64,000 bases of DNA, from the NCBI GenBank assembly GCA_013298595.1, contig JAAFIG010000016.1:20047-84046 (forward strand), in the 5' to 3' direction. The first letter of the stretch is position 1. The number at the start of each line of letters is the position of its first letter. The position numbers and the translations under genes are program-made. Source of the DNA: Deinococcales bacterium (GTDB taxonomy: Bacteria; Deinococcota; Deinococci; Deinococcales; JAAFIG01). A model generated the notes under the pieces. That model was not told the DNA's origin and searched no databases. It was given only the letters and a program-made list of their open reading frames with translations. Positions 46,597-64,000 of the stretch are shown here, piece after piece.

Positions 46597-49542
46597 CTAA
46601 ACCGAACTGCTCAGAATTTTAGAGACTCGAGTAGTCATGAAAATTTCAATATCAAAAGCTAAGTTCTGAGGCTGTTCAAGGTACTGTTGAGCTTCAAATC
46701 TTATACTTGCCTCAGTTGCAGGGTGCCAATACACAAGCTCAAAAAGCTCTTGAGCTTGTGTATTATTTATACGAAAATACATTTCTCCAACACCCAAAAA
46801 TATTTTTATAACCAAAGGGATTTCTTTTAATTTCCAAGCAATTCTTAAAGCATCCTGAAAAAAAAGCAGTGCCTCAGATTCACTTTCGGAGATTCTTCCT
46901 AAAATAATCAATGAGGTTGCTTTGACTGTTGCATTAAAATGCAATTCATTTAGCTGCAAAGCCTCGAGACTGTGTGAACGTGCTACCTCATACTGTTTGG
47001 TTTTCAGTGCTATTTCACCTAAGTTGTTGAGGAAGAATGGCACAATCAATGTGTATTTGAGTTCGTGCGCGAGTTGCAACCCTAAATTTAAGTATTCCTT
47101 AGCTTGTGGAAAAAAACCTTGCTTCGTTTTCAAAATTCCAAGTTCGTTATGCAAAATAGTGATACCAAAAGAATTATCAGCTTGCTGATGAAGTAATAAC
47201 GCTTCCAAGTCATTATTCTCAGCATCAGAATAGCGTCCCAAAATTGTTTTAAGACTCGCGATCCCCACAAGATAGTTAGCAATATGAGCGCTATTACCTA
47301 CCATTCTAGCTATCTTCAGAGCAACTTCCAAATGCGTTAATGACGACTCTGGATAACCCTGAATTTTTTCAAGAGCAGAAAGTGTACTCAAAGCTTTCAT
47401 TAACCAAGTTTCGCGTCCCTCGAGTGACTGCAACAATTGCACAGCGCGTTCAGCTAGTGCAATATCGTACCGTCCAATTCGGTGTCCTAACCAAGCAGCT
47501 TCAAAACAGGCTTTGCCAAGGGCGGCTTTGGCATTTGCTCCTGCTTGTTCTAAAACTTCTATGGCATCTTCAAATAATTGTTGACCTTCTTCACATCTGG
47601 CTTTACGATCAAAAAACACCACTAAATCAGTGGAACGCTCGAGATGCAAATAATTTTTTTGATGAACTGCCCAATGCCATGCCGTGCGGATATTCTCGAG
47701 GTCAGTTTCAATTTCGGTTAAGTATTGCTGGTCTGTACTACCACCCATTGGTCTTTGCTCGAGGAAATCAAAATAGTAATCACTGTGTTTTTCTTGTTGT
47801 GCTTCGAGTAATGCTGGGTTGCTGTGTAGTTTTTCAAAACTAAATTCTTGTACCATTAAATGCCGTTCAAACCGTCCTGTGGCATTGCGTTGCAAAAAAC
47901 TTTTGTTACACAGTGTTAATAAAGTCCGAATGGTAATACCCGAAATGTGTTCGGCGGCTTCTCGAGTGAACCCATTTTGGAAAACAGCTAATCGTTGCAA
48001 TGCCATTTGTTCATCTGGGTTGAGTAATGTCCAAGCGTATTCAAAAACAGCCCGTAGGCTGCGGTGACGCTCTGGAAGCTCGGGTTGTGTGGTTTGTAAG
48101 AATGTTAGCCCAAGTTCTAATTCCAGTACAATTTCTGCTAGTGTCAACACTCGAGTCCAATGACTTGCAAGTTCGAGTGCTAATGGTAATCCATTGAGTA
48201 ATTGACAAATTTGGATCATGTACTTTTGATCTTCTGGCTCGAGAGTAAAGCGTGCATTAGTTTTTTTGGCACTGCGTAAAAATAATTGCACAGCGTCAAA
48301 TTCTTCAATTGGGGTTACTTCTGGTGTCACAGAACTGGCTGGTATGGACATACCGAAAATATCAAGTAAATATTCATCTTGCCAATCCAGCACTTCGCGG
48401 GATGTGGTAAGAATTTTTATTGCAGGGCAGGATTGTAGAATCTCGAGCAGAATATCTGCGCCGTCTAGTAAATGCTCAAAATTATCAAAGATCAGTAGCA
48501 TCTCTTGGTTTTGTAAATGAGTGATGAGTTGCTCGGTAGCGTGTTCGGCATTGACCAGTGGTAATTCGAGGGCAGCAAAAATTGCAGGTAACACTTGAAC
48601 TGTGCTTGAAAGATTTGCTAGTGCCACAAAAGTACTACCTTGTGCGAATAAAGCACCAATTCTCGAGGCTGTTTCGATGGCTAATCTGGTTTTTCCGATG
48701 CCACCCTGTCCAACCAATGTTAGTAACCGAACTTCTGGTGCACTTAACTTGGCTTCGATTGCTTGTAATTCGCGTTCACGACCAATAAAGGCTGTATTTG
48801 GCGCTGTAAAGCCACGTAATATGTTTACTGGCTCGAGGTTTAGTGTAATTAACGCATTTCTTAATTGCTCGGCAAGTAATGTGGTGGATTCAAGTGGCAC
48901 TAAACCCATCTCTTGATCTAATACTTTGGCAAAAGCTTCGTATGCTTGTAATGCTGCTACTTGCGAAGCACTATTTTGCAAAGACAACCGCAGGAATGCT
49001 TGTAGCACATCTTCGGCTAAAGGTTCAAAGCGTAAGGCTCTTTGAAACAAAGTATTCATTTCTAGCATTTGTTGTTTAGACTCGAGCATGGCTGCATAAC
49101 TCAGCACTGCTTCGCGGTACGAAGTCCGTAGCGTTTCTTGTTCGATTTCTAACCATTCTTCAAAGGCAGGTAAGGCTGAACTTAAACCCTCGAGTAACAA
49201 ACCTTGGTAGCTTGCCACAGCATTTTTCCAATCACCAGTTGCGAAAAAACGAGCAAATTCGAGCACATCTGAATCCACCACCCAACGAACCTGCTCGTCA
49301 AGAGTTTCTAAGGTGACAAATGGTAAATCTCGCACCCGACTAAGTAAATGCCGCAAATTCTTACGCGCTGAAACAGAATCCGCATCATCCCATAGCAACA
49401 ATGCCAGTTGATCTCGAGACACCCAATCGGCTTTGAATGCCAAAAATGCCAATAATAAGAAGCGTTTCTCGGGTAAAAAAGGAATGGTTGAGTTGCTAAA
49501 AATAATTTTAGCAACTCCAAAAAGCGTAACCCGTGTCCCCAT
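46597..49542 (-). CDS. AfsR/SARP-type regulator: winged helix, BTAD, NB-ARC ATPase, TPR
   Basis: 981 residues. Residues 1-90 form an OmpR-like winged helix (RFLLLAFLAFKADWVSRDQL...LRHLLSRVR). Residues 95-235 are a bacterial transcriptional activation domain. FIGRERELQAIE (252-263) opens a STAND ATPase with P-loop VGQGGIGKT (277-285) and Walker B LLIFDNFEHLL near 350. The rest are TPR-like helices (for example ILHNELGILKTKQGFFPQAKEYL). It should be a ligand- or partner-triggered activator that oligomerises on DNA. ATG 49542 has TATGAT 8 nt upstream. A heptamer direct repeat lies just beyond, suggesting autoregulation. Confidence 0.85.
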   Translation of the reverse strand: MGTRVTLFGVAKIIFSNSTIPFLPEKRFLLLAFLAFKADWVSRDQLALLLWDDADSVSARKNLRHLLSRVRDLPFVTLETLDEQVRWVVDSDVLEFARFFATGDWKNAVASYQGLLLEGLSSALPAFEEWLEIEQETLRTSYREAVLSYAAMLESKQQMLEMNTLFQRALRFEPLAEDVLQAFLRLSLQNSASQVAALQAYEAFAKVLDQEMGLVPLESTTLLAEQLRNALITLNLEPVNILRGFTAPNTAFIGRERELQAIEAKLSAPEVRLLTLVGQGGIGKTRLAIETASRIGALFAQGSTFVALANLSSTVQVLPAIFAALELPLVNAEHATEQLITHLQNQEMLLIFDNFEHLLDGADILLEILQSCPAIKILTTSREVLDWQDEYLLDIFGMSIPASSVTPEVTPIEEFDAVQLFLRSAKKTNARFTLEPEDQKYMIQICQLLNGLPLALELASHWTRVLTLAEIVLELELGLTFLQTTQPELPERHRSLRAVFEYAWTLLNPDEQMALQRLAVFQNGFTREAAEHISGITIRTLLTLCNKSFLQRNATGRFERHLMVQEFSFEKLHSNPALLEAQQEKHSDYYFDFLEQRPMGGSTDQQYLTEIETDLENIRTAWHWAVHQKNYLHLERSTDLVVFFDRKARCEEGQQLFEDAIEVLEQAGANAKAALGKACFEAAWLGHRIGRYDIALAERAVQLLQSLEGRETWLMKALSTLSALEKIQGYPESSLTHLEVALKIARMVGNSAHIANYLVGIASLKTILGRYSDAENNDLEALLLHQQADNSFGITILHNELGILKTKQGFFPQAKEYLNLGLQLAHELKYTLIVPFFLNNLGEIALKTKQYEVARSHSLEALQLNELHFNATVKATSLIILGRISESESEALLFFQDALRIAWKLKEIPLVIKIFLGVGEMYFRINNTQAQELFELVYWHPATEASIRFEAQQYLEQPQNLAFDIEIFMTTRVSKILSSSV

Positions 49543-51126: not shown

Positions 51127-52032
51127 TTACGGATTGCGAAAGTATCCGATGATTACTTCGAGTTTAGCCGCTTCATCGGGCGATAGCATCGGTTCGATTG
51201 TTTCTATTACACCAGCCGAACCAATCACTCGAGGTAATGAAATTGCCACGCCTCGAGCAGCATCCCAAGCGCTGACACTAAGAATTTCATGGCGATTCTC
51301 GAGGATGACTGTGATTAAATGGGCAATAGCTTGTCCAAGACCAAATAAGAACGAGCCTTTTTTGTGCATTGCTTTCGTTACAGCGTACTGCACTGCTTCG
51401 GTGATCTGGTTTTTCGTTTGGTTACTGAGGTGTTTTCCGTGTTGCTCGAGGTATGTTTCAAATGGTACTCCTGCGATTCGCACAGTACTCCATGACATCA
51501 ATGAACTACCACCTTGTTGACCTAGTACGTAACAGTGTACGTTGCTGGGATGTACGCCAACATGCTGAGCAATGGCTTGTCGGAACAGATTAGTCTCGAG
51601 CATTGTGCCTGTGCCAATCACTCTTTTAGCGAAGTTATCACCAAATAGTCGGGCTATGTGGTTGGTCATTAAGTCTATTGGTTGAATTGCATTGATAACA
51701 ATTGCATCTGAGCGGAGTTCGATGGCACGAATCGTGGTTAAGGTTGCCTCGAGCATATTGGTGTTCATTTCGAGTAATTGTTTACCTGAGTAATTGATTT
51801 CACTGCGTTTACCTGCTGCCAAAACAATGATTTGCGAATCGCGTACATCCTCGAGTTCACCAGCTCGTACCTTGGCTGGTTTTGGGCTTCCGCTGTTGAT
51901 ATCTAATGCTTGGGCTTCGGCAATGCTGTGTTCTTTATCCACCAAGACGATTTCCATTGCTTTATTTTGTTGCACCAAAGCATTGGCTATTGCGCCACCA
52001 ACCATTCCAGCTCCGATAATGCTAATTTTCAT
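51127..52032 (-). CDS. lactate/malate dehydrogenase-fold protein lacking catalytic residues
   Basis: 301 residues, collinear with bacterial L-lactate dehydrogenases. The NAD fold (ISIIGAGMVGGAIANAL) and Asp32 in VLVDKEH are kept. Every residue of the chemistry is changed: substrate-loop Arg109 is Gly83, Asn140 is Gln117, Asp168 is Glu146, Arg171 is Leu149, and catalytic His195 is Gln173 (GQQGGS for GEHGD). It therefore probably binds NAD(H) but not as a dehydrogenase; sensing or a scaffold role is inferred. The ATG has GGAGG upstream. A CTGTAAT-N4-TGGTAAT repeat 33 nt before the start ties it to pckG, divergent. Confidence 0.8.
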   Translation of the reverse strand: MKISIIGAGMVGGAIANALVQQNKAMEIVLVDKEHSIAEAQALDINSGSPKPAKVRAGELEDVRDSQIIVLAAGKRSEINYSGKQLLEMNTNMLEATLTTIRAIELRSDAIVINAIQPIDLMTNHIARLFGDNFAKRVIGTGTMLETNLFRQAIAQHVGVHPSNVHCYVLGQQGGSSLMSWSTVRIAGVPFETYLEQHGKHLSNQTKNQITEAVQYAVTKAMHKKGSFLFGLGQAIAHLITVILENRHEILSVSAWDAARGVAISLPRVIGSAGVIETIEPMLSPDEAAKLEVIIGYFRNP

Positions 52033-52065
52033 AAGTACCTCCGAAAGCTAGTCTCGAGGCTTGGC

Positions 52066-52083
52066 ATTACCAGAGCATTACAG
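52066..52083 (-). promoter_or_regulatory. 11-bp-period direct repeat facing the LDH-like gene
   Basis: Read on the minus strand: CTGTAAT (52083-52077), GCTC, TGGTAAT (52072-52066). It lies 33 nt before the start codon, matching the opposite site for pckG. Confidence 0.6.
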
Positions 52084-52100
52084 CAGCGTTCTTAACCTTG

Positions 52101-52118
52101 TGGTAATGCTTTGGTAAT
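52101..52118 (+). promoter_or_regulatory. 11-bp-period direct repeat TGGTAAT facing pckG
   Basis: TGGTAAT (52101-52107), GCTT, TGGTAAT (52112-52118), 34 nt before the pckG ATG. One of seven such sites in 52-64 kb. Confidence 0.65.
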
Positions 52119-52152
52119 TTTGTCATTGCAAACTTTTGACAGGAGGATTTAT

Positions 52153-53982
52153 ATGTCAAAAGAATTCACAAGCAACCTCGAGTTACAACGCTGGGTACAA
52201 GAAACCGCAGCCCTGTGTCAACCAGACCGCATTCATTGGTGCGATGGCTCACAAGCCGAATATGATGCTCTGTGCGATCAAATGGTACAAAGTGGAACAT
52301 TCACCCGCTTAAATCCAGTAAAACGCCCCAACAGTTTCCTGGCGCGTTCAGACATTTCTGATGTCGCAAGAGTCGAGGATCGGACTTTTATTTGCTCGAG
52401 AAGCAAAGCTGACGCAGGACCAACCAATAATTGGCATGAACCTAAAAGCATGAAAACCAAGTTACAGGGCTTATTTTCTGGTTCAATGAGAGGACGCACA
52501 ATGTATGTGATTCCGTTCTGCATGGGTCCAATTGGTAGCCCGATTTCGCATATTGGTGTGGAACTCTCTGATTCGCCATATGTCGTGGTCAATATGCGAA
52601 TCATGACTCGTATGGGCAAAGCCGTACTCGAGGCACTAGGTGATAACGACTTTGTGCATTGTTTACACAGTGTTGGAGCGCCACTCGAGGCTGGGCAGAA
52701 AGATGGAACTTGGGCGTGCAATGTTGACAAGTACATTGTGCATTTTCCAGAGGAACGCAGCATCTGGAGTTTCGGTAGTGGATATGGTGGTAATGCACTG
52801 CTTGGCAAGAAATGCTTTGCTTTACGAATTGCCAGTGTGCTGGCTCGAGAACAAAATTGGTTAGCTGAACATATGCTGATTCTTGGGGTGAAAGACCCGA
52901 ACGGCGAAAAAACATTTGTCGCAGCAGCTTTCCCCAGTGCGTGTGGCAAAACCAATTTTGCGATGCTCATACCACCTAAACCATTCACTGATGATGGTTG
53001 GGAAATCAGTACGGTTGGTGATGACATTGCATGGATTAAACCCGATACGACAGGACAACTCCGTGCCATCAACCCAGAAGCAGGATTCTTTGGGGTTGCA
53101 CCAGGCACAAATTACGAATCCAACCCAAACGCCATGAAAAGCATTCTCGAGAACACAATTTTTACCAATGTCGCCCTAACCGACGATGGGGATGTCTGGT
53201 GGGAAGGTATGACACCAACACCACCCACCCATTTGATTGACTGGACAGGACAAGACTGGACTCCAGATTGTGGACGCAAAGCGGCTCATCCAAACTCGAG
53301 ATTCACTGCTCCAATATCACAATGCCCAGTGATAGACCCAGCGTATAACGACCCTGCTGGCGTACCAATTTCTGCTTTTATCTTCGGGGGACGACGCTCG
53401 AGTGTCGTGCCACTTGTCTACCAAAGTTTTAACTGGACTTATGGGGTGTATGCCGCTGCGACAATGGGCAGCGAAACCACAGCGGCTGCTATTGGTGCAA
53501 CAGGTGCGGTGCGCCGTGACCCATTTGCGATGCTCCCATTTTGTGGGTATCACATGGGCGATTACTTCAACCACTGGGTGCAACTCGGACGCGAATTACC
53601 CAATCCTCCACGGATATTTAATGTCAACTGGTTTCGCAAAGACGAACACGGCAAGTTCTTATGGCAAGGCTTTGGCGAGAATATGCGTGTCTTAAAATGG
53701 ATTGTTGAACGCGCTCGAGGTCATGCCACCAGTGTCGAAAGTGTCCTGGGTTGGGTACCAAGATTTGAAGACATGGACTGGCGCGGACTCGAGATCAGTA
53801 AAACCCAATTCGAGCAGTTAATCAGTGTGGACAGAGAAGCATGGCAACAAGAAATTGCTTCGCATGACGAATTGTTTGTGAAACTCTATGACCGTTTGCC
53901 TAAGGAATTTATTTTCATCCGTGAATTGATGCTCAGTGCGTTATGGCGTTCACCAGAAAAAAGCGAATTGGCACACGAGTGA
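52153..53982 (+). CDS. pckG: phosphoenolpyruvate carboxykinase (GTP)
   Basis: 609 residues, full length for the GTP-dependent class. It converts oxaloacetate and GTP to phosphoenolpyruvate, GDP and CO2. [14 protein letters not shown] is the kinase-1a P-loop with the reactive Cys of the GTP enzymes. [10 protein letters not shown] is the kinase-2 motif and [14 protein letters not shown] follows. [13 protein letters not shown] carries substrate Arg residues. AGGAGG lies 6 nt before ATG 52153. It is controlled by the TGGTAAT repeat upstream and could set anaplerotic or gluconeogenic flux within the same response as its neighbours. Confidence 0.95.
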
Positions 53983-53986
53983 GTTG

Positions 53987-54088
53987 TTAGGAACTCCCCG
54001 CCTTCGGCGACCCCCTCGTTAAGGGGGTTTAGGTAGTGCCAACCCCCTCAATGAGGGGATCCGCGATCCGCGCTGGGGGGAGTTCTAA
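53987..54088. repeat. 102-bp imperfect palindromic element
   Basis: Ends GGAACTCCCC and GGGGAGTTC are inverted, flanked by TTAG and TAA that extend the match. Inside are nested inverted stretches (ACCCCCTCGTTAAGGGGGT and CCCCTCAATGAGGGG). The element folds into a branched hairpin and carries no gene. It lies between pckG and the transporter gene. Confidence 0.55.
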
Positions 54089-54124
54089 CCGCGCATGGTT
54101 TTCTATGTCCATCTCGAGGTTCTT

Positions 54125-55732
54125 ATGTTGGCACTCTTAAAAGACAATCCCTTACTGGTGCTTTTTCTCGTCTCGAGCCTAGGTTTTTTGCTGGGGCGGG
54201 TAAAAATCGCGGGGTTCTCTTTGGGAATTGCCGCTGTTTTATTTGTGGGTTTGGCTTTTGGCAGTTTGGATGCCGAATTAAAACTCCCTGAAATTGTGCA
54301 ACGCCTTGGTTTGGTGTTGTTTGTGTACACGATAGGACTCTCGAGTGGTACGGGATTTTTTCGTAGCCTAGGGCAGCGTGGCTTGCGTGATAACGCCTTG
54401 GTGCTGGGTGTACTTGTGCTGGCAGTGCTTTTCTTGGGTGTGTTGCGTCGTGTGTTGAATCTCGAGCCGAGTTTAATCGCTGGGGTATTCGCGGGTGCGC
54501 TGACCAATACACCAGCTCTGGCAGGGGTTCTCGAGGCACTCAAAGGCTCGAGTAGCGAGTCTCTTCCTGTACTTGGTTATAGCGTGACATACCCGATGGG
54601 TGTGATTGCTATGTTGCTTTGCATTGGAGTCCTCGAGCGATTCTGGAAAGTAGACATGAAACTCGAATCCGCTCGAGTTGCTGGTTTTGCAGCCACAGGC
54701 TTAAAAAGTGTTTCGGTTCTTGTGAATAAGCCAGAAGTCATCGGTCTATCTGTGGTCAAATTAGCACAAACGGAAAAGTGGAAAGTGCTTTTTGCACGGC
54801 ATCGGCGTGGGGAAATTGAAACACTGGTTTGCCCCGAAACGCAACTAGAACTGGGCGATGTGATTACCCTAATTGGTTCAGAAAAAGCCGTTTCGGACAG
54901 TATTGCTAGGCTTGGTGAGGCAATTCCAACCACTTTAGAATTAAACCGCAGCCATTTTGATTACCGCAGAATTTTTGTTTCAAACCAAAAAATTGCAGGA
55001 CGCAGCTTACTCGAGTTGCAATTACCACAGCGTTTTGGTGTGCTAATCACTCGAGTCCGCCGAGGTGATACCGAATTCTTACCCAACAAAGACACGGTTC
55101 TTGAGCTTGGAGACCGTGTAAGGGTTGTTTGTGCGCCAGAGCAAATGAATACCATCTCGAGTTACCTTGGCGATTCGTACCAGCACTTATCTGAAATTGA
55201 TGTCCTCAGTTTTGGATTAGGAATTGCACTTGGATTACTGCTCGGAAGTCTAAAGATTCCTCTGCCAAACGGTGGTCACTTTGAACTTGGCATTGCAGGT
55301 GGCACACTGATTGTTGGTTTATTGCTTGGCTGGAAAGAACGTTTTTTGGGTGTGTTATGGCAAATTCCGTACAGTGCTAACCTGACCTTACGCCAAATTG
55401 GAATTGTGCTTTTTCTAGCAGGAGTAGGCACACGAAGCGGTTTTGCTTTTGGACAAACCGTATTCTCGAGCCTTGGGCTAACCCTTTTTTTACTTGGAGC
55501 AATGGTCACAAGTGTTGTCGCAATTACGCTGCTCTTTTTAACGCATAAGCTCTTTCGTATTCCATTTCCAATTGCGATTGGAATGCTGGCAGGGCTGCAA
55601 ACCCAACCTGCGGTACTTGCCTTTGCCACCGAACGAAGCGGTAATGACTTACCCAATCAGGGATACGCCACGGTGTACCCAATGGCAATGATTGCCAAGA
55701 TACTCCTCGCGCAATTGCTGCTGACACTGTAA
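54125..55732 (+). CDS. AAE-type transporter (aspartate:alanine exchanger family) with two TrkA-C domains
   Basis: About 535 residues. Two blocks of five to six membrane spans (residues 1-165 and 365-535) each carry the YidE/YbjL duplication motif: VYTIGLSSGTGFF with TNTPALAGVLEAL in the first, FLAGVGTRSGF with TQPAVLAFA in the second. Both end in a V-x-YPMA/G segment (VTYPMGVIAM, TVYPMAMIAKI). Between them two TrkA-C ligand-binding domains include LELGDVITLIG and LELGDRVRVVC. The substrate is probably an anionic amino acid or dicarboxylate, by family. ATG 54125 has GAGG upstream; ATG 54095 is in frame. Confidence 0.8.
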   Translation: MLALLKDNPLLVLFLVSSLGFLLGRVKIAGFSLGIAAVLFVGLAFGSLDAELKLPEIVQRLGLVLFVYTIGLSSGTGFFRSLGQRGLRDNALVLGVLVLAVLFLGVLRRVLNLEPSLIAGVFAGALTNTPALAGVLEALKGSSSESLPVLGYSVTYPMGVIAMLLCIGVLERFWKVDMKLESARVAGFAATGLKSVSVLVNKPEVIGLSVVKLAQTEKWKVLFARHRRGEIETLVCPETQLELGDVITLIGSEKAVSDSIARLGEAIPTTLELNRSHFDYRRIFVSNQKIAGRSLLELQLPQRFGVLITRVRRGDTEFLPNKDTVLELGDRVRVVCAPEQMNTISSYLGDSYQHLSEIDVLSFGLGIALGLLLGSLKIPLPNGGHFELGIAGGTLIVGLLLGWKERFLGVLWQIPYSANLTLRQIGIVLFLAGVGTRSGFAFGQTVFSSLGLTLFLLGAMVTSVVAITLLFLTHKLFRIPFPIAIGMLAGLQTQPAVLAFATERSGNDLPNQGYATVYPMAMIAKILLAQLLLTL

Positions 55733-55744
55733 TGCCGTGGTAAT
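55727..55744 (+). promoter_or_regulatory. 11-bp-period direct repeat before the universal stress gene
   Basis: CTGTAAT (55727-55733), GCCG, TGGTAAT (55738-55744). It overlaps the transporter stop codon and lies 32 nt before ATG 55777. Confidence 0.6.
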
Positions 55745-55776
55745 GCCGTTGCAGCAAACTCGAGACAGGAGGAACT

Positions 55777-56241
55777 ATGATTTTAGTCGCCCTAGACGGA
55801 ACTCAAGGCAGTTGGAATGCTCTGGATCAAGCTATTGCTGTTTCAACCAATCCACTCGAACTTTGGTATTTGGTTCATGTCATTCCAGACCCAATGCCAC
55901 TCCATGCACGTTGGTTCGCCCCTGCCATGCACCAAGAAATCGAACTACAACGCCGAACATCGAATCGGCTTGGGATGCAAATCCTCGAGACTGGCAAACA
56001 ACGCATCCAAGCTAAACTCGGGATTCACACCCAAATACAAACCAGGCTCGAAGAAGCCTACGACCGCAGTGTTGGGCAGACCTTAGCCAGAATCATCAAA
56101 GATGAACAGCCGCATTTGGTTGTGCTTGGCGCTCATGGTGAACATCCCGAAATCAATGATCTTGGGCGCACGGCTGCATGGGTAGCACAACACGAGAAGA
56201 ACAACACACTGATTGTGCATCGAATAGGAGAACAGGTATGA
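55777..56241 (+). CDS. universal stress protein (UspA family)
   Basis: 154 residues. ILVALDGTQGSWNALDQAI opens the fold, and HLVVLGAHGEH with LGRTAAWVAQHEKNNTLIVH gives the G-x-H-G and terminal ATP-site segments; the usual G-2x-G-9x-G(S/T) motif is altered, so nucleotide binding is uncertain. AGGAGG precedes the ATG. It heads an operon: its stop overlaps the start of the DsbA-like gene, and the CBS gene follows. A TGGTAAT repeat lies upstream. Confidence 0.8.
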   Translation: MILVALDGTQGSWNALDQAIAVSTNPLELWYLVHVIPDPMPLHARWFAPAMHQEIELQRRTSNRLGMQILETGKQRIQAKLGIHTQIQTRLEEAYDRSVGQTLARIIKDEQPHLVVLGAHGEHPEINDLGRTAAWVAQHEKNNTLIVHRIGEQV

Positions 56242-56948
56242 ATGTCAAGGTTTTCGTTTCAGTGCTGGTAGTAATAGCTGTACTTGGCGTTGGGATTGTG
56301 ATGCTGAACTTGCGTCCAAGCTCGAGCAACATCACTTCTGGCAGCAAAACTGTAATGTATATCAGCGGTGGTATTAACCGCACGGTGAGCCTTCGTAAGG
56401 TTACTGTTGATGCCTTTGTTGGCGCTCGGTTTATCAGTGGCAAGACAGATGCACCTAACACCATTGTCGAGTTCTCGGATTACCAATGCCCTGCTTGTGC
56501 CATGTTTGCCACGCAAATCCAACCTGAATTCAAAACACGATTACTCGAGACAGGCAAGGTTCGTTTTGCGTACCGAGATTTTCCATTGCCACAGCATCAG
56601 AATGCAAAAATCACTGCGGTAGCCGCTGCTTGCGCCAATCTACAAGGTCGGTTTGAACCGATGAACCAAATCTTATTTCGCGCTCAGAACCAGTGGGACA
56701 GCTTAAGTCCAAATCTTGCCAAAGAAAAATTAAAAGAACTAGCCACCAATACTGGTGTGAACCAAAAAGAATTTGCAACCTGTCTCTCGAGCCAACAATT
56801 TGATGCTGCCATCGAAGCTGACCAAGCGGCTGGTAACGCGGTGCAACTCGAGGCAACACCATCGTTTGTGGTCAATGGTTACTTGGTCAGTGGTGCAATA
56901 CCCATCGAGGCATTTGAAGCCATCATCCGTGCAACAAATAACCCATAA
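56238..56948 (+). CDS. DsbA-like membrane-anchored thiol oxidoreductase
   Basis: About 236 residues. One N-terminal span (VFVSVLVVIAVLGVGIVML) anchors it with the domain outside. FSDYQCPACAMF carries the C-x-x-C active site, and QLEATPSFVVNGYLVSGAI has the cis-Pro loop typical of DsbA/Thioredoxin_4 proteins. It probably makes or reshuffles disulfides in envelope proteins. The start at 56238 overlaps the Usp stop as ATGA; a longer frame upstream overlaps Usp and is rejected. Confidence 0.85.
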   Translation: MNVKVFVSVLVVIAVLGVGIVMLNLRPSSSNITSGSKTVMYISGGINRTVSLRKVTVDAFVGARFISGKTDAPNTIVEFSDYQCPACAMFATQIQPEFKTRLLETGKVRFAYRDFPLPQHQNAKITAVAAACANLQGRFEPMNQILFRAQNQWDSLSPNLAKEKLKELATNTGVNQKEFATCLSSQQFDAAIEADQAAGNAVQLEATPSFVVNGYLVSGAIPIEAFEAIIRATNNP

Positions 56949-56958
56949 GGAGGATTGT

Positions 56959-57483
56959 ATGACCACGATTCGCAACACTGGCACTCAACTCGAGCGCACC
57001 GATAAGGAATTTGTGCTGCACTTTGAACATGGTAAGCACAACAGCCCACAAACTCCACTGTTAGCCCGTCAAGGAGGCTATATGACCGTTCATGACATCA
57101 TGACTGCCCATGTGATTACCGTAGACAGTCACACTACTCTACCCACAATCCGAGAAATCCTTGCCGAAAATGCTTTTCGCCATGTGCTGGTCAAAGAACA
57201 CAACCGCATTGTTGGTGTGATTACTGACCGTGATATTCGCCGCGCTTTACCATCGGATGCGACCAGCCTTGCCAAATGGGAAATTCCGTATTTGCTCGAG
57301 AAAACCACCGCCAAAGAACTGATGCACAGCCCTGTAATTACGGTTCTCGAGGATGCACCAGTGCAGTATGCGGCTCGAGTCATGCTCGAGGAAGGAATTT
57401 CGTGCTTGCCTGTGCTGTACGGCGATGAGTTGAAGGGAATTGTCACCTCGAGCGATATTCTGCGAGCTGTGGCGCAAAGCTAA
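56959..57483 (+). CDS. CBS-pair domain protein
   Basis: 174 residues from ATG 56959 (AGGAGG 7 nt upstream). Residues 42-174 are two CBS domains: VHDIMTAHVITVDSHTTL...GVITDRDIRRAL and AKELMHSPVITVLEDAPV...GIVTSSDILRAV. They bind adenine nucleotides and usually act as energy sensors. A second ATG at 57082, at the first CBS domain, has its own AAGGAGG, so a short 133-residue form is likely also made. The 41-residue head is polar and unassigned. It is the third gene of the Usp operon. Confidence 0.82.
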   Translation: MTTIRNTGTQLERTDKEFVLHFEHGKHNSPQTPLLARQGGYMTVHDIMTAHVITVDSHTTLPTIREILAENAFRHVLVKEHNRIVGVITDRDIRRALPSDATSLAKWEIPYLLEKTTAKELMHSPVITVLEDAPVQYAARVMLEEGISCLPVLYGDELKGIVTSSDILRAVAQS

Positions 57484-57510
57484 GGCAGTTCATTGCTCGG
57501 CTCGAGAAGC

Positions 57511-57533
57511 AAAAACCCCGCCATTGCTGACGG
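57511..57533 (-). terminator. intrinsic terminator with GCAA tetraloop
   Basis: On the minus strand CCGTCA, GCAA, TGGCGG then GGTTTTT. It ends the minus-strand transcript that would encode the small membrane peptide. Confidence 0.6.
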
Positions 57534-57842
57534 AGCGTAGCTTCTCTTGGTTTTCAGGTTACTTGAGGACGCTCATGATTAAGGCAATCAAGCCTGTTAT
57601 CAGTGTCACAATGGCTGCCCAGAATTGCGCTTCTTGAGTCACCGTTTTACGGGTTTTTCTTTGGTGCTTGGCGGTGAAACCTTGCGGTTTTTGCCGTTTT
57701 CTGTTACGCTTTTTGTGTGGTATTACAAACACCTCCTTTCACGGAGGCAATTACCCGCACCCTCTTTCTCAGGGTGCGGGTTTCTCCGTTAGGATAATTC
57801 CGACCCATCGGGGTCAAACCATCAACCCAGAGAAGCTACGCT
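57534..57842 (-). ncRNA. candidate type I toxin-like mRNA with complementary ends
   Basis: AGCGTAGCTTCTCTTGGTT (57534-57552) and AACCCAGAGAAGCTACGCT (57824-57842) are inverted with one mismatch. On the minus strand a TATGCT box at 57851-57846 puts the RNA start next to the 57842 arm, and the terminator abuts the 57534 arm. The RNA's first and last bases would pair, as in Hok- and AapA-type toxin mRNAs. Between them are hairpins GACCC/GGGTC, an 11-bp stem at 57753-57781, and CCTCC/GGAGG at 57732-57747 that hides the Shine-Dalgarno. A small transposable element with terminal inverted repeats is the alternative; no target duplication is visible. Confidence 0.4.
57559..57732 (-). CDS. 57-residue basic peptide with C-terminal membrane helix, possible toxin
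   Basis: The frame runs from GTG 57732 through MFVIPHKKRNRKRQKPQ to a membrane segment FWAAIVTLITGLIALIMSVL just before the stop. The first 30 residues are very basic. AAAGGAGG sits right at the start but its best-spaced codon is an ATA four codons on... the true start is therefore uncertain. The ending, T-Q-E-A then a hydrophobic helix and Lys, is like small holin-like type I toxins. CCTCC at 57743-57747 on the mRNA can pair with the Shine-Dalgarno. Confidence 0.4.
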   Translation of the reverse strand: MFVIPHKKRNRKRQKPQGFTAKHQRKTRKTVTQEAQFWAAIVTLITGLIALIMSVLK

Positions 57843-57954
57843 GTGAGCATAACATGGTAATATTTGGTTTGAGAAGTGCGTTGGCTTGAGCCTCTGGTGG
57901 TTGAAATTTCAAAGAAGTCTCGAAAAGCACCAATGCGATTACAAAAAAGTCTGC

Positions 57955-59853
57955 TTAAACTTTCCAAGCCAGCAGCCTTAACCCAACCAGACACACAAAA
58001 ACCGTACCACCTTCATGCGCCACAACTGCTAATGGAAGCGGCACATTGCCAATCAGCGTCAAAATCCCCATCACCGCAATCACAGACAAAGCAAAACCCA
58101 AATTAAAACGCACTGTTTTTGCCGTGGCTCGAGCCAAAACAATGGCATTGCTCAGTTTGCCCAAATCAGATTTCATTAGTACTACATCGGCACTCTCGAG
58201 GGCAACATCCGAGCCACTGCCCATGGCAATGCCAAGGTCAGCCGATGCCAGCGCGGGTGCGTCGTTGATGCCATCACCAATCATGGCAATAGGAGCAGAT
58301 TTTCGTAAGTCTGCAATCACTTCGAGTTTATTTTCGGGCAATAATTCAGCTCGAGTTTCAAGAATGCCTAGGCTGTGGGCAATTTTATCCGCCACGATTT
58401 TTCGGTCTCCTGTCAGCATGACTAAGCGCAACCCTTCTTTTTGCAAGCGCTCGAGGGCGGTTTTGGCTTGGATGCGTGGCGTGTCGGACACAGCAAAAAT
58501 GGCGATGGCTCGAGTGGAAGCGCCAAGAATCATGGTGGTGAAGCCTTGCTGCTCGAGTTCCACAAGTTGATTCTCGAGAACATCTGAAGAAATATAGGCG
58601 GCAGCCATTGCACGATTGCCAATCCAAATTTCTTGTTGCTCGAGAATAGCGACAAAGCCCTTACCCTTGATGGCTTGCGGATTTTGCAGCTCGAGCATCG
58701 CACCGTCATACGCTGCAACAATCGCTTTGGCGACAGGGTGTTCACTGTTCTTCTCTAAACTGGCAGCCAATTGTAAAGCTGTTTCCTCATTCCCCTCGAG
58801 TGCAATGATCTTTTGCAGTTTCATTTTCCCTTCAGTCAGTGTGCCAGTCTTATCAAATGCCAGTATTTTGATTTTGGACAGCGCCTCGAGTGCCGCACCG
58901 CTTTTGAATAACACCCCACCCCTTGCGGCGGCTGCCATTGCTGAGAGCATCGCGGCAGGCGTGGCAATCACCACAGCACATGGACTGACTGCCACCAAGA
59001 AGGTCATGGCTTTGTACCACGCGGCGTTTAGCTCGAGAAGAAAAGCAAAATGAGCAATCAAAAAAACAGTGGGCAAGGACAGCAGCACCAACAGCGTGTA
59101 ACGCCCCTCGAACCGATCAGCAAAGAGTTCAGTTTGGCTTTTTTGAGCTTGGGCATTTTCGACTAAGGCAATCAGTTGAGCGAGGGTACTGTCACCTGCC
59201 CCATGCGTGACCCGCACCAGCAGTACACCAGAATCGTTGTGCGTGCCGCTTCGTACAGCGTCACCCACGGTTTTATCCACGGGGACACTTTCGCCCGTCA
59301 CCGCGCTTTCATTGACGCTCGAGAAACCCTCGAGAATCAGCCCATCGGCAGCAAAGCGTTCTCCGGGACGTACCAGCAGGGTATCACCGACTTGGACTTC
59401 CTCGAGTTTAACTTGGCGTTCGATACCGCTCGAGTCTCGAACAGTCGCGGTTTCGGGTTTGAGTTGCATTAAGGCTCGAATGGCGCTCGAGGTGCGGTTC
59501 ATTGCCCAGTCTTGCAAGGTGTTTGAAAGGGTAAATAAGAATAAGAGGATTGCGCCATCTTCGGTTGCGCCGACACTGAGCGCACCCAAAGCCGCCACGA
59601 CCATCAGCAAGTCCACATCGAGTTTGCGTTTGGTCAATAAGGTGTGTAAGGCAGACCTTGAAGCTGGTATGCCCCCCGCGAGGTAATTGATGCCAAAACC
59701 AGTCCACTCGAGCCACTGAATTTGTAGGGTTAAACCAAGTACACCAAGCAGCAAACCAAGCAGGGTCAGGGCAGTCATCACAAATGCAAGTTGCAATTCG
59801 GTCAACATGGAATCAAAAGGTTCTCGAGCAGTGCGGGGCAAGGTCTTGGTCAT
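57955..59853 (-). CDS. P1B-4-type heavy-metal-transporting ATPase
   Basis: 632 residues. The phosphorylation motif FDKTGTLTEGK, actuator NESAVTGESVPV, and hinge MIGDGINDAPALASADLGIAMG are intact. The metal-site span has SPCAVVIATPAA and the last span AHEGGTVFVCL; SPC plus HEGGT is the signature of subgroup P1B-4 (CtpD/CoaT/PfeT), exporters of cobalt or ferrous iron. No N-terminal metal-binding domain is present, also typical. AGAGGA precedes the ATG. It lies divergent from sufS, consistent with protecting iron-sulfur assembly from metal excess. One TGGTAAT half-site faces it. Confidence 0.88.
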   Translation of the reverse strand: MTKTLPRTAREPFDSMLTELQLAFVMTALTLLGLLLGVLGLTLQIQWLEWTGFGINYLAGGIPASRSALHTLLTKRKLDVDLLMVVAALGALSVGATEDGAILLFLFTLSNTLQDWAMNRTSSAIRALMQLKPETATVRDSSGIERQVKLEEVQVGDTLLVRPGERFAADGLILEGFSSVNESAVTGESVPVDKTVGDAVRSGTHNDSGVLLVRVTHGAGDSTLAQLIALVENAQAQKSQTELFADRFEGRYTLLVLLSLPTVFLIAHFAFLLELNAAWYKAMTFLVAVSPCAVVIATPAAMLSAMAAAARGGVLFKSGAALEALSKIKILAFDKTGTLTEGKMKLQKIIALEGNEETALQLAASLEKNSEHPVAKAIVAAYDGAMLELQNPQAIKGKGFVAILEQQEIWIGNRAMAAAYISSDVLENQLVELEQQGFTTMILGASTRAIAIFAVSDTPRIQAKTALERLQKEGLRLVMLTGDRKIVADKIAHSLGILETRAELLPENKLEVIADLRKSAPIAMIGDGINDAPALASADLGIAMGSGSDVALESADVVLMKSDLGKLSNAIVLARATAKTVRFNLGFALSVIAVMGILTLIGNVPLPLAVVAHEGGTVFVCLVGLRLLAWKV

Positions 59854-59948
59854 GATGAATTGTCCTCTCTAAATGGGCAAAATGGTTGTGTTGCACATGA
59901 CTTGAGTATTCAAGTCGGATTACTGCAAGCCAACCCTAACCGTGCTGC

Positions 59949-59955
59949 ATTACCA
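59949..59955 (-). promoter_or_regulatory. single TGGTAAT half-site facing the metal ATPase gene
   Basis: TGGTAAT on the minus strand, 95 nt from the ATPase start. No second unit at 11 bp is recognisable, so it is weaker evidence than the paired sites. Confidence 0.35.
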
Positions 59956-59971
59956 CAGCGTTGCTTAGGAT

Positions 59972-59989
59972 TGGTAATGGCTTGGTAAT
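59972..59989 (+). promoter_or_regulatory. 11-bp-period direct repeat TGGTAAT before sufS
   Basis: TGGTAAT (59972-59978), GGCT, TGGTAAT (59983-59989), ending 23 nt before ATG 60013. No Shine-Dalgarno is seen, so this places the repeat over the -35 of a short-leader promoter. Confidence 0.65.
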
Positions 59990-60012
59990 CAAAAAGTGAG
60001 ATTGTCCTACCA

Positions 60013-61233
60013 ATGAAACCCTTTATCTCATCATCAGATTTCCCTTTGCTCGAGCAACCAGTCAACGGTAAGCGCTTGGTATATTTGGATTCGACAGCCA
60101 CAAGCCTCAAACCAAAAGTTGTTCTCGAGGCAATGGACAACTATTACCGCCATGTCGGAGCAAATGTGCATCGGGGCGTGTACAGCCTGAGCAGTCAAGC
60201 CACGGATTTGTATGAAATGGCTCGAGTTTCGGTAGCGCGTTTGATTAGCGCAGCCCAACCCGAGAGCCTTGTTTTTACGCGCAACACCACCGAAGGCATC
60301 AACCTTGTGGCATACGCTTGGGGTTTAAAAAATCTTTTGCCAGATGATGAAATTGTTGTTTCTGAACTCGAGCATCACTCGAATCTTGTGCCGTGGCATT
60401 TGGTGGCTGGGTATCGGGGTGCAAAAGTCAAAGCCATTCGTATGACCACAGATGGTCAACTTGACTTGGAGCATTACGCCAGTCTTTTGCAATCTGGCAA
60501 AGTCAAAATGGTGGCAATTGCCCATGTTTCCAATGCGCTTGGCACAATTCATCCAATTCAAAAGATCGTACAAATGGCGCACCAAGCAGGGGCATTGTGT
60601 TTGGTGGATGGCGCTCAGAGCGTGCCGCATTTACAGGTAGATGTGCAGGATATTGGCGCGGATTTCTATGCTTTCTCCGGTCATAAAATGCTTGCACCAA
60701 CCGGTATTGGTGTGCTGTATGGCAAGCTCGAGGTTCTCAAAGCCATGCCTCCATTCTTGGGTGGCGGTGACATGATAGACCAAGTTTTTCCTGACCACTC
60801 GAGTTACGCCGAGCCGCCCATGCGCTTTGAAGCTGGCACACCCGCCATTGCCGAAGCAATCGGGCTGGGCGCGGCTGCCGAATACCTGATGGATTTAGGT
60901 ATGGCTCGAGTTCAAGCCCATGAGCAAGCACTGACGGTGTATGCGCTCGAGCAATTGGATCAATTCGAGGGTGTGACCACCTACGGCACACGAGGAGCAA
61001 ACCGGAGTGCAGTAATTGCTTTTAATCTCGAGAATGTTCACCCGCATGATGTCGCCACGTTCTTAGATGCAGAAGGGATTTGTGTTCGGGCTGGGCATCA
61101 TTGCGCCCAACCTGCCATGCGAGCCTTGGGGGTGCAATCCACTGCTCGAGCCAGTTTTGGGATTTACAACACCAAAGAAGATGTAGATGCGTTGGTGGAA
61201 TCCCTAAAACACTGCATCAAATTTTTTCAGTAG
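60013..61233 (+). CDS. sufS: cysteine desulfurase SufS
   Basis: 406 residues, class V aminotransferase fold, group II desulfurase. YLDSTATSLKP opens the protein, SELEHHSNLVPW is the PLP-stacking His region, and FSGHKMLAPTGIGVLYG holds the PLP lysine. CVRAGHHCAQPAMRALG holds the catalytic Cys that carries persulfide. It supplies sulfur for iron-sulfur clusters, passing it to SufU, whose gene converges on it with a 17-nt overlap. It is monocistronic behind a TGGTAAT repeat, unlike the usual sufCBDSU operon. Confidence 0.95.
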   Translation: MKPFISSSDFPLLEQPVNGKRLVYLDSTATSLKPKVVLEAMDNYYRHVGANVHRGVYSLSSQATDLYEMARVSVARLISAAQPESLVFTRNTTEGINLVAYAWGLKNLLPDDEIVVSELEHHSNLVPWHLVAGYRGAKVKAIRMTTDGQLDLEHYASLLQSGKVKMVAIAHVSNALGTIHPIQKIVQMAHQAGALCLVDGAQSVPHLQVDVQDIGADFYAFSGHKMLAPTGIGVLYGKLEVLKAMPPFLGGGDMIDQVFPDHSSYAEPPMRFEAGTPAIAEAIGLGAAAEYLMDLGMARVQAHEQALTVYALEQLDQFEGVTTYGTRGANRSAVIAFNLENVHPHDVATFLDAEGICVRAGHHCAQPAMRALGVQSTARASFGIYNTKEDVDALVESLKHCIKFFQ

Positions 61234-61642
61234 GTTCGAGCATGACTTTCAAAGTCTGCCATGCCAGCGAAGCACACTTGACTCGAGCGTGAAGTTTCGC
61301 CACGCCTCGCAGTGCGGCAGCATCGCCGAGCGATTCGGCAGGAGTTTCGCCTTTCATCATCGTGTGAAAATCCTTGGTTAGCTCGAGTGCAGTCCCCACC
61401 GTTTGCCCCTCGAGCAGCACTGTCATCAACGAAGCACTGGCTTGTGAAATGGCGCAGCCAACGCCCGTAAATTTAGCTTTGACAATGATTCCCGCTTCGA
61501 TTCTCAGGTGTAGCTCGAGTTCATCGCCGCAACTTGGGTTGTGTCCCCTTTGGTACATGGTGGCATTCTCGAGTTCACCTTTGTTGCGTGGGTGTTGTGA
61601 ATGCTCGAGGATCACTTGGCGGTAAATATCGGTGAGGTTCAC
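61217..61642 (-). CDS. sufU: SufU-type sulfur acceptor/iron-sulfur assembly protein
   Basis: About 141 residues. NPSCGDELELHL, GVGCAISQASASLM and RVKCASLAWQ provide the three conserved Cys, with the Asp in CGD, that bind zinc and accept sulfur from SufS. The start is GTG 61642 (MNLTDIYRQVILEHS), fixed by TACACT 6 nt upstream; a longer open frame upstream is not supported. Its 3' end overlaps the sufS 3' end by 17 nt on the opposite strand. Confidence 0.93.
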   Translation of the reverse strand: MNLTDIYRQVILEHSQHPRNKGELENATMYQRGHNPSCGDELELHLRIEAGIIVKAKFTGVGCAISQASASLMTVLLEGQTVGTALELTKDFHTMMKGETPAESLGDAAALRGVAKLHARVKCASLAWQTLKVMLEPTEKI

Positions 61643-61648
61643 GTTACT

Positions 61649-61654
61649 AGTGTA
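61649..61654 (-). promoter_or_regulatory. -10 box TACACT before sufU
   Basis: TACACT on the minus strand is 6 nt before GTG 61642 with no Shine-Dalgarno. Confidence 0.55.
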
Positions 61655-61663
61655 GCAAATGTT

Positions 61664-61681
61664 TGGTAATGCCTTGGTAAC
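61664..61681 (+). promoter_or_regulatory. 11-bp-period direct repeat between sufU and the membrane gene
   Basis: TGGTAAT (61664-61670), GCCT, TGGTAAC (61675-61681). The orientation points to the plus-strand gene at 61768. It is 21 nt upstream of the sufU start and could also affect that promoter. Confidence 0.6.
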
Positions 61682-61767
61682 TTCTGCCTGTGAAACTGAT
61701 TCATCTTGCTCGAGGCGGAGGTACACGTATGAAGAATCGGTTTGTGACAGCTTATCAAAGGAGATAT

Positions 61768-62148
61768 ATGAATACTTGGCGAATCATGTTGGCAGTCATC
61801 ATCGTGCTGCATGGCTTAGTCCACATCATGGGTGTGGTGTCGTACTTAAAATTAGGCGAAGTGCAAGGTTTACCTTACAAAACCACGGTACTGGACGGAC
61901 GTGTCAACCTTGGTAATAGTGGTATTGGTGTGTACGGCGCACTTTGGGGTGTGGCTGCACTTGGGTTTATTGCTGCTGCCATCGGCATACTTCTCAACTC
62001 GAGTTGGTACTTGCCACTGCTGACTGTTGCAACTGTGTTCTCGTTGCTTCTGACGGTTTTGGACTTCAATGTGGCAATGGCAGGTGTTGTTGTCAATACT
62101 GCCTTGCTGATTTTGGTTTGGATCGCCCCACGTTTCTCGAGTTCGTAA
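61768..62148 (+). CDS. small four-span membrane protein, unknown
   Basis: About 126 residues with four hydrophobic segments (IMLAVIIVLHGLVHIMGVV, IGVYGALWGVAALGFIAAAIG, YLPLLTVATVFSLLLTVL, AGVVVNTALLILVWIA). Between the first two is a short loop, KLGEVQGLPYKTTVLDG. HGLVH near the first span could bind metal or heme. ATG 61768 has AAAGGAG upstream. An in-frame ATG at 61729 with GGAGG also exists and would add 13 residues. No named family recognised. Its context is the TGGTAAT-controlled block. Confidence 0.6.
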   Translation: MNTWRIMLAVIIVLHGLVHIMGVVSYLKLGEVQGLPYKTTVLDGRVNLGNSGIGVYGALWGVAALGFIAAAIGILLNSSWYLPLLTVATVFSLLLTVLDFNVAMAGVVVNTALLILVWIAPRFSSS

Positions 62149-62198
62149 ACGCATCAAGTACAACACTTGAGCCGTCAAAAATCACCATAGGCTCGGAT

Positions 62199-62216
62199 TG
62201 GTAATGCTCTGGTAAT
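62199..62216 (+). promoter_or_regulatory. 11-bp-period direct repeat TGGTAAT before the 62239 gene
   Basis: TGGTAAT (62199-62205), GCTC, TGGTAAT (62210-62216), 22 nt before ATG 62239. An AATACT at 62230-62235 could be the -10, so the repeat would cover the -35. Confidence 0.65.
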
Positions 62217-62238
62217 TGATAAGCACAAAAATACTGGT

Positions 62239-63669
62239 ATGCAAATTGATACAACAATTTTTGCCCATCCAACCATCATTCAAGGCGGGATGGGTGTTGC
62301 CATTTCCAATTGGCGTTTAGCTCGAGCCGTTTCGCAACTCGGGCAACTTGGTGTGGTTTCAGGAACGGGCTTAGATAATGTGATGATTCGGCGTTTACAA
62401 GACGGTGACAAGAATGGTTATGTGCGAATGGCACTCGAGGAATTTCCAAATCAAGCCTTGGTAAAAACAGCGCTCGAGAAGTATTTTGTGGCAAACGAAA
62501 AGAAACACGCTTACAAAGTCGCTTCGTTACCCTCGAGTCTCGGAGCGATGGGAACAGATTTTTTAAGTGTTCTCGCGGCTTTTGTTGAAGTCTGGCTGGC
62601 TAAACAAGGTCACAACGGAATGGTCGGAATTAACCTCCTGACCAAGATTCAGACGCACACATTGCCAACATTGTATGGCGCATTGCTGGCAAACGTGGAT
62701 TATGTGCTGATGGGCGCTGGTATTCCACGTGATATTCCAGATGTTCTCGAGAAACTGAGTCTAGGAGGGCCTGCCACACTTAAACTCGAGGTGAGCGGCG
62801 CACTGCAAGGCGAATCGTTTACGCTCGAGTTTGATCCGAATGAAATTCAGGCTGCGCCTCGTCTGCTTACACGCCCTTATTTCCTGCCGATTATTGCCTC
62901 GAATGTCCTAGCAACGATGTTGGCACGTAAGTGCAGCACAGGAATTTCGGGTTTTATTGTCGAAATGCCCAGTGCTGGTGGTCACAATGCCCCACCACGC
63001 GGCGAAGTGCATTTGGATGGACTTGGACAACCTATTTATGGCACTCGAGACGAAGTTGACTTGGTGCAACTCAAAGCCTTGGGGTATCCGTTCTGGTTAG
63101 CGGGCGGCACAGGCTCGCCACAAGCGCTACAAACTGCCTTAAAGCAAGGCGCAACAGGAATTCAGGTTGGAACACTGTTTGCCTATGCCCAAGAGTCAGG
63201 CTTTGCCCCTGAACTTAAACAAGCGGTTCTCGAGCAAATCCAAACCAATGCTATTCGGATTTTTACTGACCCTCGAGCCTCACCAACAGGCTTTCCATTC
63301 AAAGTCGTCGAAGTTCCCAACACGCTCTCGGAAAATACGGTTTTTGCAACTCGAGCTAGGGTTTGCGACCTTGGGTATTTACGCGAAGCCTACCGATTGG
63401 AGGATGGCAGTATTGGTTTTCGCTGCGCTTCTGAGCCAGTTACAACGTACCTAAAAAAAGGCGGTAAGCTCGAGGACACCATCGGACGAAAATGCCTCTG
63501 CAATGCACTCATGGCAAGTGCGGATTACCCACAGACTCGAGGGAAAAGCCTTGAGCCAGCACTGGTCACAAGCGGTGATGAGCTGCTGCATATGAACGAT
63601 TTTCTCAAGCAGTACGGCGCAAATTATACCGCCACGGATGTCGTGCAGTATTTACTGCCAGTTGAATAA
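62239..63669 (+). CDS. nitronate monooxygenase-like FMN flavoprotein
   Basis: 476 residues, longer than simple nitronate monooxygenases (about 330-380). The N-terminal IIQGGMGVAISNWRLARAVSQLG and central EMPSAGGHNAPP, then FWLAGGTGSPQALQTALKQGATGIQVGTLFAYAQESG, are the FMN phosphate-binding barrel segments of the 2-nitropropane dioxygenase family. A C-terminal extension of about 120 residues has CLCNALMASADYPQ and may bind another group. Possible roles include detoxifying nitronates or acting as an enoyl-reductase-like enzyme. Its start has no Shine-Dalgarno. Confidence 0.8.
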   Translation: MQIDTTIFAHPTIIQGGMGVAISNWRLARAVSQLGQLGVVSGTGLDNVMIRRLQDGDKNGYVRMALEEFPNQALVKTALEKYFVANEKKHAYKVASLPSSLGAMGTDFLSVLAAFVEVWLAKQGHNGMVGINLLTKIQTHTLPTLYGALLANVDYVLMGAGIPRDIPDVLEKLSLGGPATLKLEVSGALQGESFTLEFDPNEIQAAPRLLTRPYFLPIIASNVLATMLARKCSTGISGFIVEMPSAGGHNAPPRGEVHLDGLGQPIYGTRDEVDLVQLKALGYPFWLAGGTGSPQALQTALKQGATGIQVGTLFAYAQESGFAPELKQAVLEQIQTNAIRIFTDPRASPTGFPFKVVEVPNTLSENTVFATRARVCDLGYLREAYRLEDGSIGFRCASEPVTTYLKKGGKLEDTIGRKCLCNALMASADYPQTRGKSLEPALVTSGDELLHMNDFLKQYGANYTATDVVQYLLPVE

Positions 63670-63674
63670 ACACG

Positions 63675-63692
63675 TGGTAATGCCTTGGTAAT
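63675..63692 (+). promoter_or_regulatory. 11-bp-period direct repeat TGGTAAT before the 63733 gene
   Basis: TGGTAAT (63675-63681), GCCT, TGGTAAT (63686-63692), 40 nt before ATG 63733. The first T of unit 2's spacer follows directly after the previous stop codon region. Confidence 0.65.
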
Positions 63693-63732: not shown

Positions 63733-64000
63733 ATGATTCAGACTCATCAACCACCACCCTTTGTTCCCACACCAACTCGAGATTCTGGTGTGGTGCAAGT
63801 TCCTTTGATGGATGCAACCCTCGATAAACGCGGGTTAATTGCGGGTTTACTTTTTTCGGGGGCGCTGACTGCCTTGGTGTTTCTTGGCTCTGAGGGCTTA
63901 CGTGGTTTTGATGGGGCGCTGGCAGGTTATTGCTTTAGTGCTTTGTTTGCCACTTTTGGCATTGTGTATCGGTACGCTGTTTGGTTGCAACGCCCAGCCA
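63733..64000 (+). CDS. membrane protein, 3' end outside window
   Basis: The frame from ATG 63733 begins MIQTHQPPPFVPTPTRDSG, a Pro-rich cytoplasmic head of about 33 residues. Two membrane spans follow (LIAGLLFSGALTALVFLG and ALAGYCFSALFATFGIVYRYAVW). It is open to the last base. AGGAGG lies 8 nt upstream. The family cannot be named from this part; it is expected to belong to the TGGTAAT-controlled set. Confidence 0.65.
   Translation, partial: MIQTHQPPPFVPTPTRDSGVVQVPLMDATLDKRGLIAGLLFSGALTALVFLGSEGLRGFDGALAGYCFSALFATFGIVYRYAVWLQRPA

Follow-up and report, generated by a model that had tools for sequence, protein, structure and literature searches.

A small clade of LDH-derived proteins in Deinococcales with the catalytic residues replaced in a common pattern

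Lactate dehydrogenase (LDH) is a textbook enzyme, and its catalytic residues are taken as fixed throughout the LDH/malate dehydrogenase (MDH) superfamily. In LDH chemistry, His195 is the proton donor, Asp168 is its partner and Arg171 is the carboxylate anchor. A gene of a Deinococcales bacterium, located at positions 51127..52032 on the minus strand (stop codon 51127-51129) of the 64,000-nucleotide stretch analysed here (the window), encodes an LDH-fold protein of 301 aa in which these residues are replaced. What an LDH fold with Glu/Gln in place of the Asp-His pair binds or does was thereby made a testable question. A patterned exchange of this kind under selection tests the reuse of the LDH pocket, and automated searches match the proteins concerned to lactate dehydrogenases.

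The preliminary description had reported a full-length frame behind a good Shine-Dalgarno sequence, an intact nucleotide-binding part and overall collinearity with LDH, and these points were all borne out. The ATG start codon lies five bases after the GGAGG of a GGAGGT Shine-Dalgarno sequence (52037..52042, minus strand), and the codon usage of the gene (0.084) was like that of its neighbours (0.04-0.11), compared with -0.11 for random synonymous codons. The Pfam domains Ldh_1_N and Ldh_1_C span the full length of the protein with 61.9 and 67.3 bits, above the curated cut-offs of 27 and 22.6, which places it in the LDH/MDH superfamily; with the L-LDH equivalog TIGR01771 (NCBIfam) it reached 216.4 bits, below the cut-off of 303.55. 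The closest solved relatives were Thermus LDHs (E ~1e-53, ~36% identity), and the AlphaFold model (pLDDT 95.4) adopted the LDH fold with a TM of 0.93 to Thermus thermophilus LDH (2v6m). The NAD-binding G-x-G-x-x-G and the following Asp are intact. Only LDH domains were detected by Pfam and in the AlphaFold model, with no DNA-binding or other signalling domain found.

Alignments with canonical LDHs reproduced exactly the residue mapping that had been claimed for the active site. Where L-LDH has R109, N140, D168, R171 and H195, the window protein has G, Q, E, L and Q, namely Gly83 (codon 51784..51786, a coordinate derived from the residue number), Gln117 (51682..51684), Glu146 (51595..51597), Leu149 (51586..51588) and Gln173 (51514..51516), all on the minus strand. 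The dicarboxylate-binding Arg102, Arg109 and Arg171 of MDH are S77, G83 and L149, which also separates the protein from MDH. A new Arg, Arg76 (51805..51807, minus strand), is present near LDH position 101. The loop Pro/Gly is missing from the window protein, and the loop carries further changes, e.g. R109G and P105I.

It is extremely improbable that this is an ordinary LDH or MDH with tolerated active-site variation. Such a reading would account for the overall LDH similarity and the 36% identity, but the five catalytic positions all differ, although R, N, D, R and H were kept at 109/140/168/171/195 in 48/48 canonical family members of the tree, and R109, D168, R171 and H195 are kept even in HicDHs (PMC4109310). 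A canonical LDH or MDH was rejected by the active-site residue table. LDH/MDH turnover is expected to be lost or extremely slow, because His195, Asp168, Arg171 and Asn140, on which established LDH chemistry depends, are absent. A second, normal LDH gene was also looked for in the genome (4.58 Mb, 68 contigs, 94% complete) and none was found; the sole other LDH/MDH-family gene (L001) encodes a malate dehydrogenase of the longer cytosolic type. The same order includes Thermus-like genomes with a canonical LDH.

Altered proteins were collected by a class-wide profile search (111 genomes), a scan of genome contigs and the active-site residue table. Eight were obtained from seven genomes: the window protein, one from G003 (same family), two from G012 (family f2) and four from family f5 (G063, G064, G070 and G076, in the Thermaceae-like genera g13 and g24). 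G003 is the Deinococcales MAG 339R_metabat_219 and G012 is the Deinococcales MAG 339R_metabinner_76. The label Thermaceae-like was given to f5 on the ground that LDHs of its genus g7 are near-identical to solved Thermus LDHs. In the tree, the eight proteins formed one clade with support of 99/99, which was retained without the active-site columns (SH-aLRT 97), and once other long rows had been dropped too, the window protein grouped with the Thermaceae-like members (100/98). A long-branch artefact was ruled out, as the clade persisted after removal of the active-site columns and the long rows.

The remaining relatives in the residue table were canonical, save a pair of proteins with N140D from a single alphaproteobacterial MAG. 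Beyond the phylum, the contig scan, which used few seed patterns, was not exhaustive and missed the Thermaceae members, returned only canonical relatives, the two known Deinococcales MAGs and the N140D pair (L107/L127). Among plasmid records, no match exceeded 60% identity, and no description of such an LDH-derived clade was found in the literature searched. With a search beyond Deinococcota that was non-exhaustive, the window protein belongs to a small Deinococcales clade, derived from LDH and not described before.

The alphaproteobacterial MAG (AP_15) carries a second kind of altered LDH in two copies (L107:429-1358 and L127:64-993), in which Asn140 has become Asp, the NAD-site Asp53 has become Asn and the catalytic loop carries an insert, but Asp168, Arg171 and His195 are kept. 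The second G012 member (L029, G012:C489) has a 3-residue deletion, a longer C-terminus and transposase-like remains adjacent to it, and may be a drifting duplicate.

The replacements recurred throughout the clade at four of the five catalytic positions. In the pattern of REPLACEMENTS, position 140 was Gln in 8/8 members, position 168 was Glu in six and Gln in two, position 195 was Glu in five and Gln in three, and position 171 was Gln, Leu, Thr or Val; N140, D168, R171 and H195 were replaced in every member. The new Arg near position 101 was also found in 8/8, and Q140 and R101 were common to members down to 34% identical. At position 109, Arg was kept in five members, with Ser in two and Gly in the window protein; position 102 was variable as well. 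In the alignment of the eight proteins (mean identity 49%), 168 and 195 were the only two of 296 columns that contained nothing but Glu/Gln. Every member has at least one Glu at 168 or 195, a pattern expected in ~46% of cases by chance under independence (arithmetic from the counts). The NAD-site residues were kept in 8/8 members. Among positions conserved in canonical relatives, the clade had lost 8/12 in the first substrate shell, as listed in PMC4109310, versus 5/46 elsewhere (p = 0.0002). The substrate-shell losses and the constrained replacements therefore indicate a selective change of the pocket that has since been maintained, with the dinucleotide site left intact.

Within the clade, dN/dS was 0.10-0.31 (Nei-Gojobori) versus 0.15-0.25 for measurable canonical pairs, the clade values covering the relatives of the window protein, with a close orthologue of the window gene absent from the sample. 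Decay was rejected for the clade by these values and by the shared substitutions. The earlier claim that the window gene is under selection was supported by the purifying selection in its relatives and by the shared substitutions, but its argument from the Shine-Dalgarno sequence was not, since that sequence shows no selection; we infer selection on the window gene from its relatives. It is improbable that the gene is an LDH copy under relaxation or decay in the window lineage alone. The window protein is the fastest-evolving member of the clade (end branch ~1.6 changes per site), has the extra loop changes, e.g. R109G and P105I, and is encoded by a gene that the same-genus genome G001 does not have, all of which would fit such a copy; however, the frame is full, the codon usage is gene-like, the fold model is of high confidence, and the four key replacements are common to a clade under purifying selection. 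As seven relatives in the same order share the change, the LDH-like gene is not a decayed gene but encodes a preserved protein whose function is either lost or new.

A pseudoenzyme is a protein without conserved catalytic motifs (PMC10211241), and in the window protein the catalytic motif is missing, the fold is kept in the model and selection is kept as measured on relatives. The most probable reading, to which we give a probability of about one half, is that the LDH-like protein is a non-catalytic pseudo-LDH with NAD(H) and some other ligand as its binding partners. Such a protein would not perform the LDH-style redox of 2-keto/2-hydroxy acids, because it lacks the proton donor, its partner, the carboxylate Arg and the carbonyl-polarising groups. 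It would probably act as an accessory or sensor protein: with NAD(H) bound, and a different small ligand taken up by the rebuilt pocket, it would relay its bound state through its conformation or through contacts with partners.

A neofunctionalised dehydrogenase or other NAD-dependent enzyme is the main alternative, a possible but less probable reading in which the Glu/Gln pair, Gln140 and Arg101 would form a new catalytic site whose substrate is not a 2-hydroxy acid. The constrained Glu/Gln positions, of which at least one is Glu in each protein, could still support chemistry, which speaks against a pseudo-LDH; moreover, the replacement residues are conserved and not drifting, Arg109 is kept in 5/8 members, and selection on the clade matches that on active LDHs in strength. 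On the other hand, Gln is found at 168 in some members and at 195 in some, and therefore neither position can be an obligatory acid/base clade-wide; no acid/base residue is common to all members, Arg109 and position 102 vary, the loop Pro/Gly is gone from the window member, and the Glu pattern has a probability of ~46% under independence. The lack of any single conserved acid/base residue favours catalysis-free ligand binding over a new enzyme. It is possible, though less likely than not, that the change of Asp-His to a Glu/Gln pair with the new Gln140 and Arg101 marks either NAD-dependent chemistry new to the LDH/MDH superfamily or a sensor of metabolites or redox state whose expression accompanies anaerobic nitrate metabolism.

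The gene neighbourhood was compared across the clade. The LDH-like gene is divergent from pckG, which encodes a GTP-type phosphoenolpyruvate carboxykinase (52153..53982, plus strand), and nearby are genes for an AspT/YidE-type transporter (Asp-Al_Ex + TrkA_C; 54125..55732, plus strand), a universal stress protein (Usp), a DsbA-like protein and a CBS protein. An AspT/YidE-type homologue (54% identical) lies two genes from a clade member in G012, the clade gene of G003 is preceded by two Usp genes and a cupin, and the neighbours differ in the Thermaceae-like genomes, with acyl-CoA dehydrogenases in some. A conserved operon partner was rejected, none being present in all members: Usp genes occur near the clade gene in the genome of the window (G000) and in G003, and the AspT-type transporter in G000 and G012. 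This variation by lineage, with no partner conserved clade-wide, also counts against the pseudo-LDH, as does the fast evolution of the window member. The AspT gene co-occurred with the clade in 5/7 versus 16/104 genomes (p = 0.0025, kinship ignored). The window also encodes a large AfsR-like BTAD/NB-ARC/TPR regulator of 981 aa (46597-49542, minus strand).

Between the LDH-like gene and pckG, a symmetric pair of TGGTAAT repeats had been described. The pair is present as 11-bp-phased direct repeats, CTGTAATGCTCTGGTAAT (52066..52083, minus strand) upstream of the LDH-like gene and TGGTAATGCTTTGGTAAT (52101..52118, plus strand) upstream of pckG, and the arms (52066-52090 and 52094-52118) are 80% complementary, but it is not specific to these two genes. 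The repeats are heptamers with an 11-bp period (TGGTAAT-GCNN-TGGTAAT), and TGGTAATGC occurred 15 times in the window versus 0.7 expected; a motif so frequent in the region is therefore no specific mark of the LDH-pckG pair. Sites with at most two mismatches numbered 24 genome-wide, with seven inside 11.7 kb of the window and another two on contig C9, in its first 10 kb, so that 9/24 fell in ~22 kb (binomial p < 1e-12). The repeat TGGTAATGCNNTGGTAAT lies 25-60 bases upstream of many start codons (window 52066-63692 and G000:C9:5550-9919), and at least seven window genes stand behind it: the LDH-like gene, pckG, the Usp gene at 55777, the SufS-like gene at 60013, the gene at 61690, the NMO-like gene at 62239 and the gene at 63733. 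A P-type ATPase gene (57961-59853) is located within this motif-rich cluster.

Contig C9 probably follows the contig of the window, because the window end (63733-64000) and the C9 start (G000:C9:1-16000, L206) encode the same stretch GYCFSALFATFGIVYRYAVWLQRPA; the DNA ends have no exact overlap. C9 encodes a molybdopterin oxidoreductase, an Fe-S protein, a Rieske-like protein, two MFS transporters, at least three Usp genes and a small BTAD regulator. Its operon is nitrate-reductase-like, and the small BTAD regulator is directly behind one repeat site. The cytochrome-like first gene was found in 0/60 relatives. Classical SARP/BTAD operators are heptamers with 4-bp spacers (PMC5930380), and by analogy we infer that the C9 BTAD protein is a putative binder of the 11-bp repeats. 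In this genome, the LDH-like gene would probably be expressed with pckG, the universal stress proteins and the nitrate-reductase-like cluster via these common 11-bp-phased putative operator sites. The motif pair was rare or absent in the other tested genomes, with none in G003 and one elsewhere in G012; the suggested shared expression is therefore a trait of this genome, not of the clade.

These sites bear on a special case of the pseudo-LDH reading, with which its confidence overlaps, namely a true NADH/NAD+ redox sensor acting on the anaerobic/nitrate gene cluster, in line with the NADH-sensing role suggested in the preliminary description. We regard it as unlikely. The NAD site is kept, and the upstream site is common to pckG, Usp and the nitrate-reductase-like cluster; against this, a DNA-binding domain is absent, no gene in the context establishes such a role, the single exact motif pair of G012 is not at the LDH-like gene, and the neighbourhood differs in other lineages.

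Rex NADH sensor repressors carry a DNA-binding domain. A redox-sensing LDH-like protein would work similarly to Rex, but it has LDH domains only and is thus not of the Rex type. The L-LDH of Thermus thermophilus/caldophilus (2v6m, 3vpg) resembles the window protein in fold, length, NAD-binding site and collinearity, but R109, N140, D168, R171 and H195 are replaced in the window protein, together with much of the substrate shell. Human UEVLD (UEV-LDH) has an LDH-like domain in a protein that is not known to serve as an ordinary LDH, a likeness to the LDH-like protein that is a lead only. UEVLD is eukaryotic and its LDH-like domain is fused to a UEV domain (PMC12513931). HicDH and apicomplexan LDH, which are altered-loop variants, are neofunctionalised members of the LDH/MDH superfamily (PMC4109310). 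According to that study, even the divergent HicDH clade retains Arg109, Asp168, Arg171 and His195, whereas the Deinococcales clade does not retain this set.
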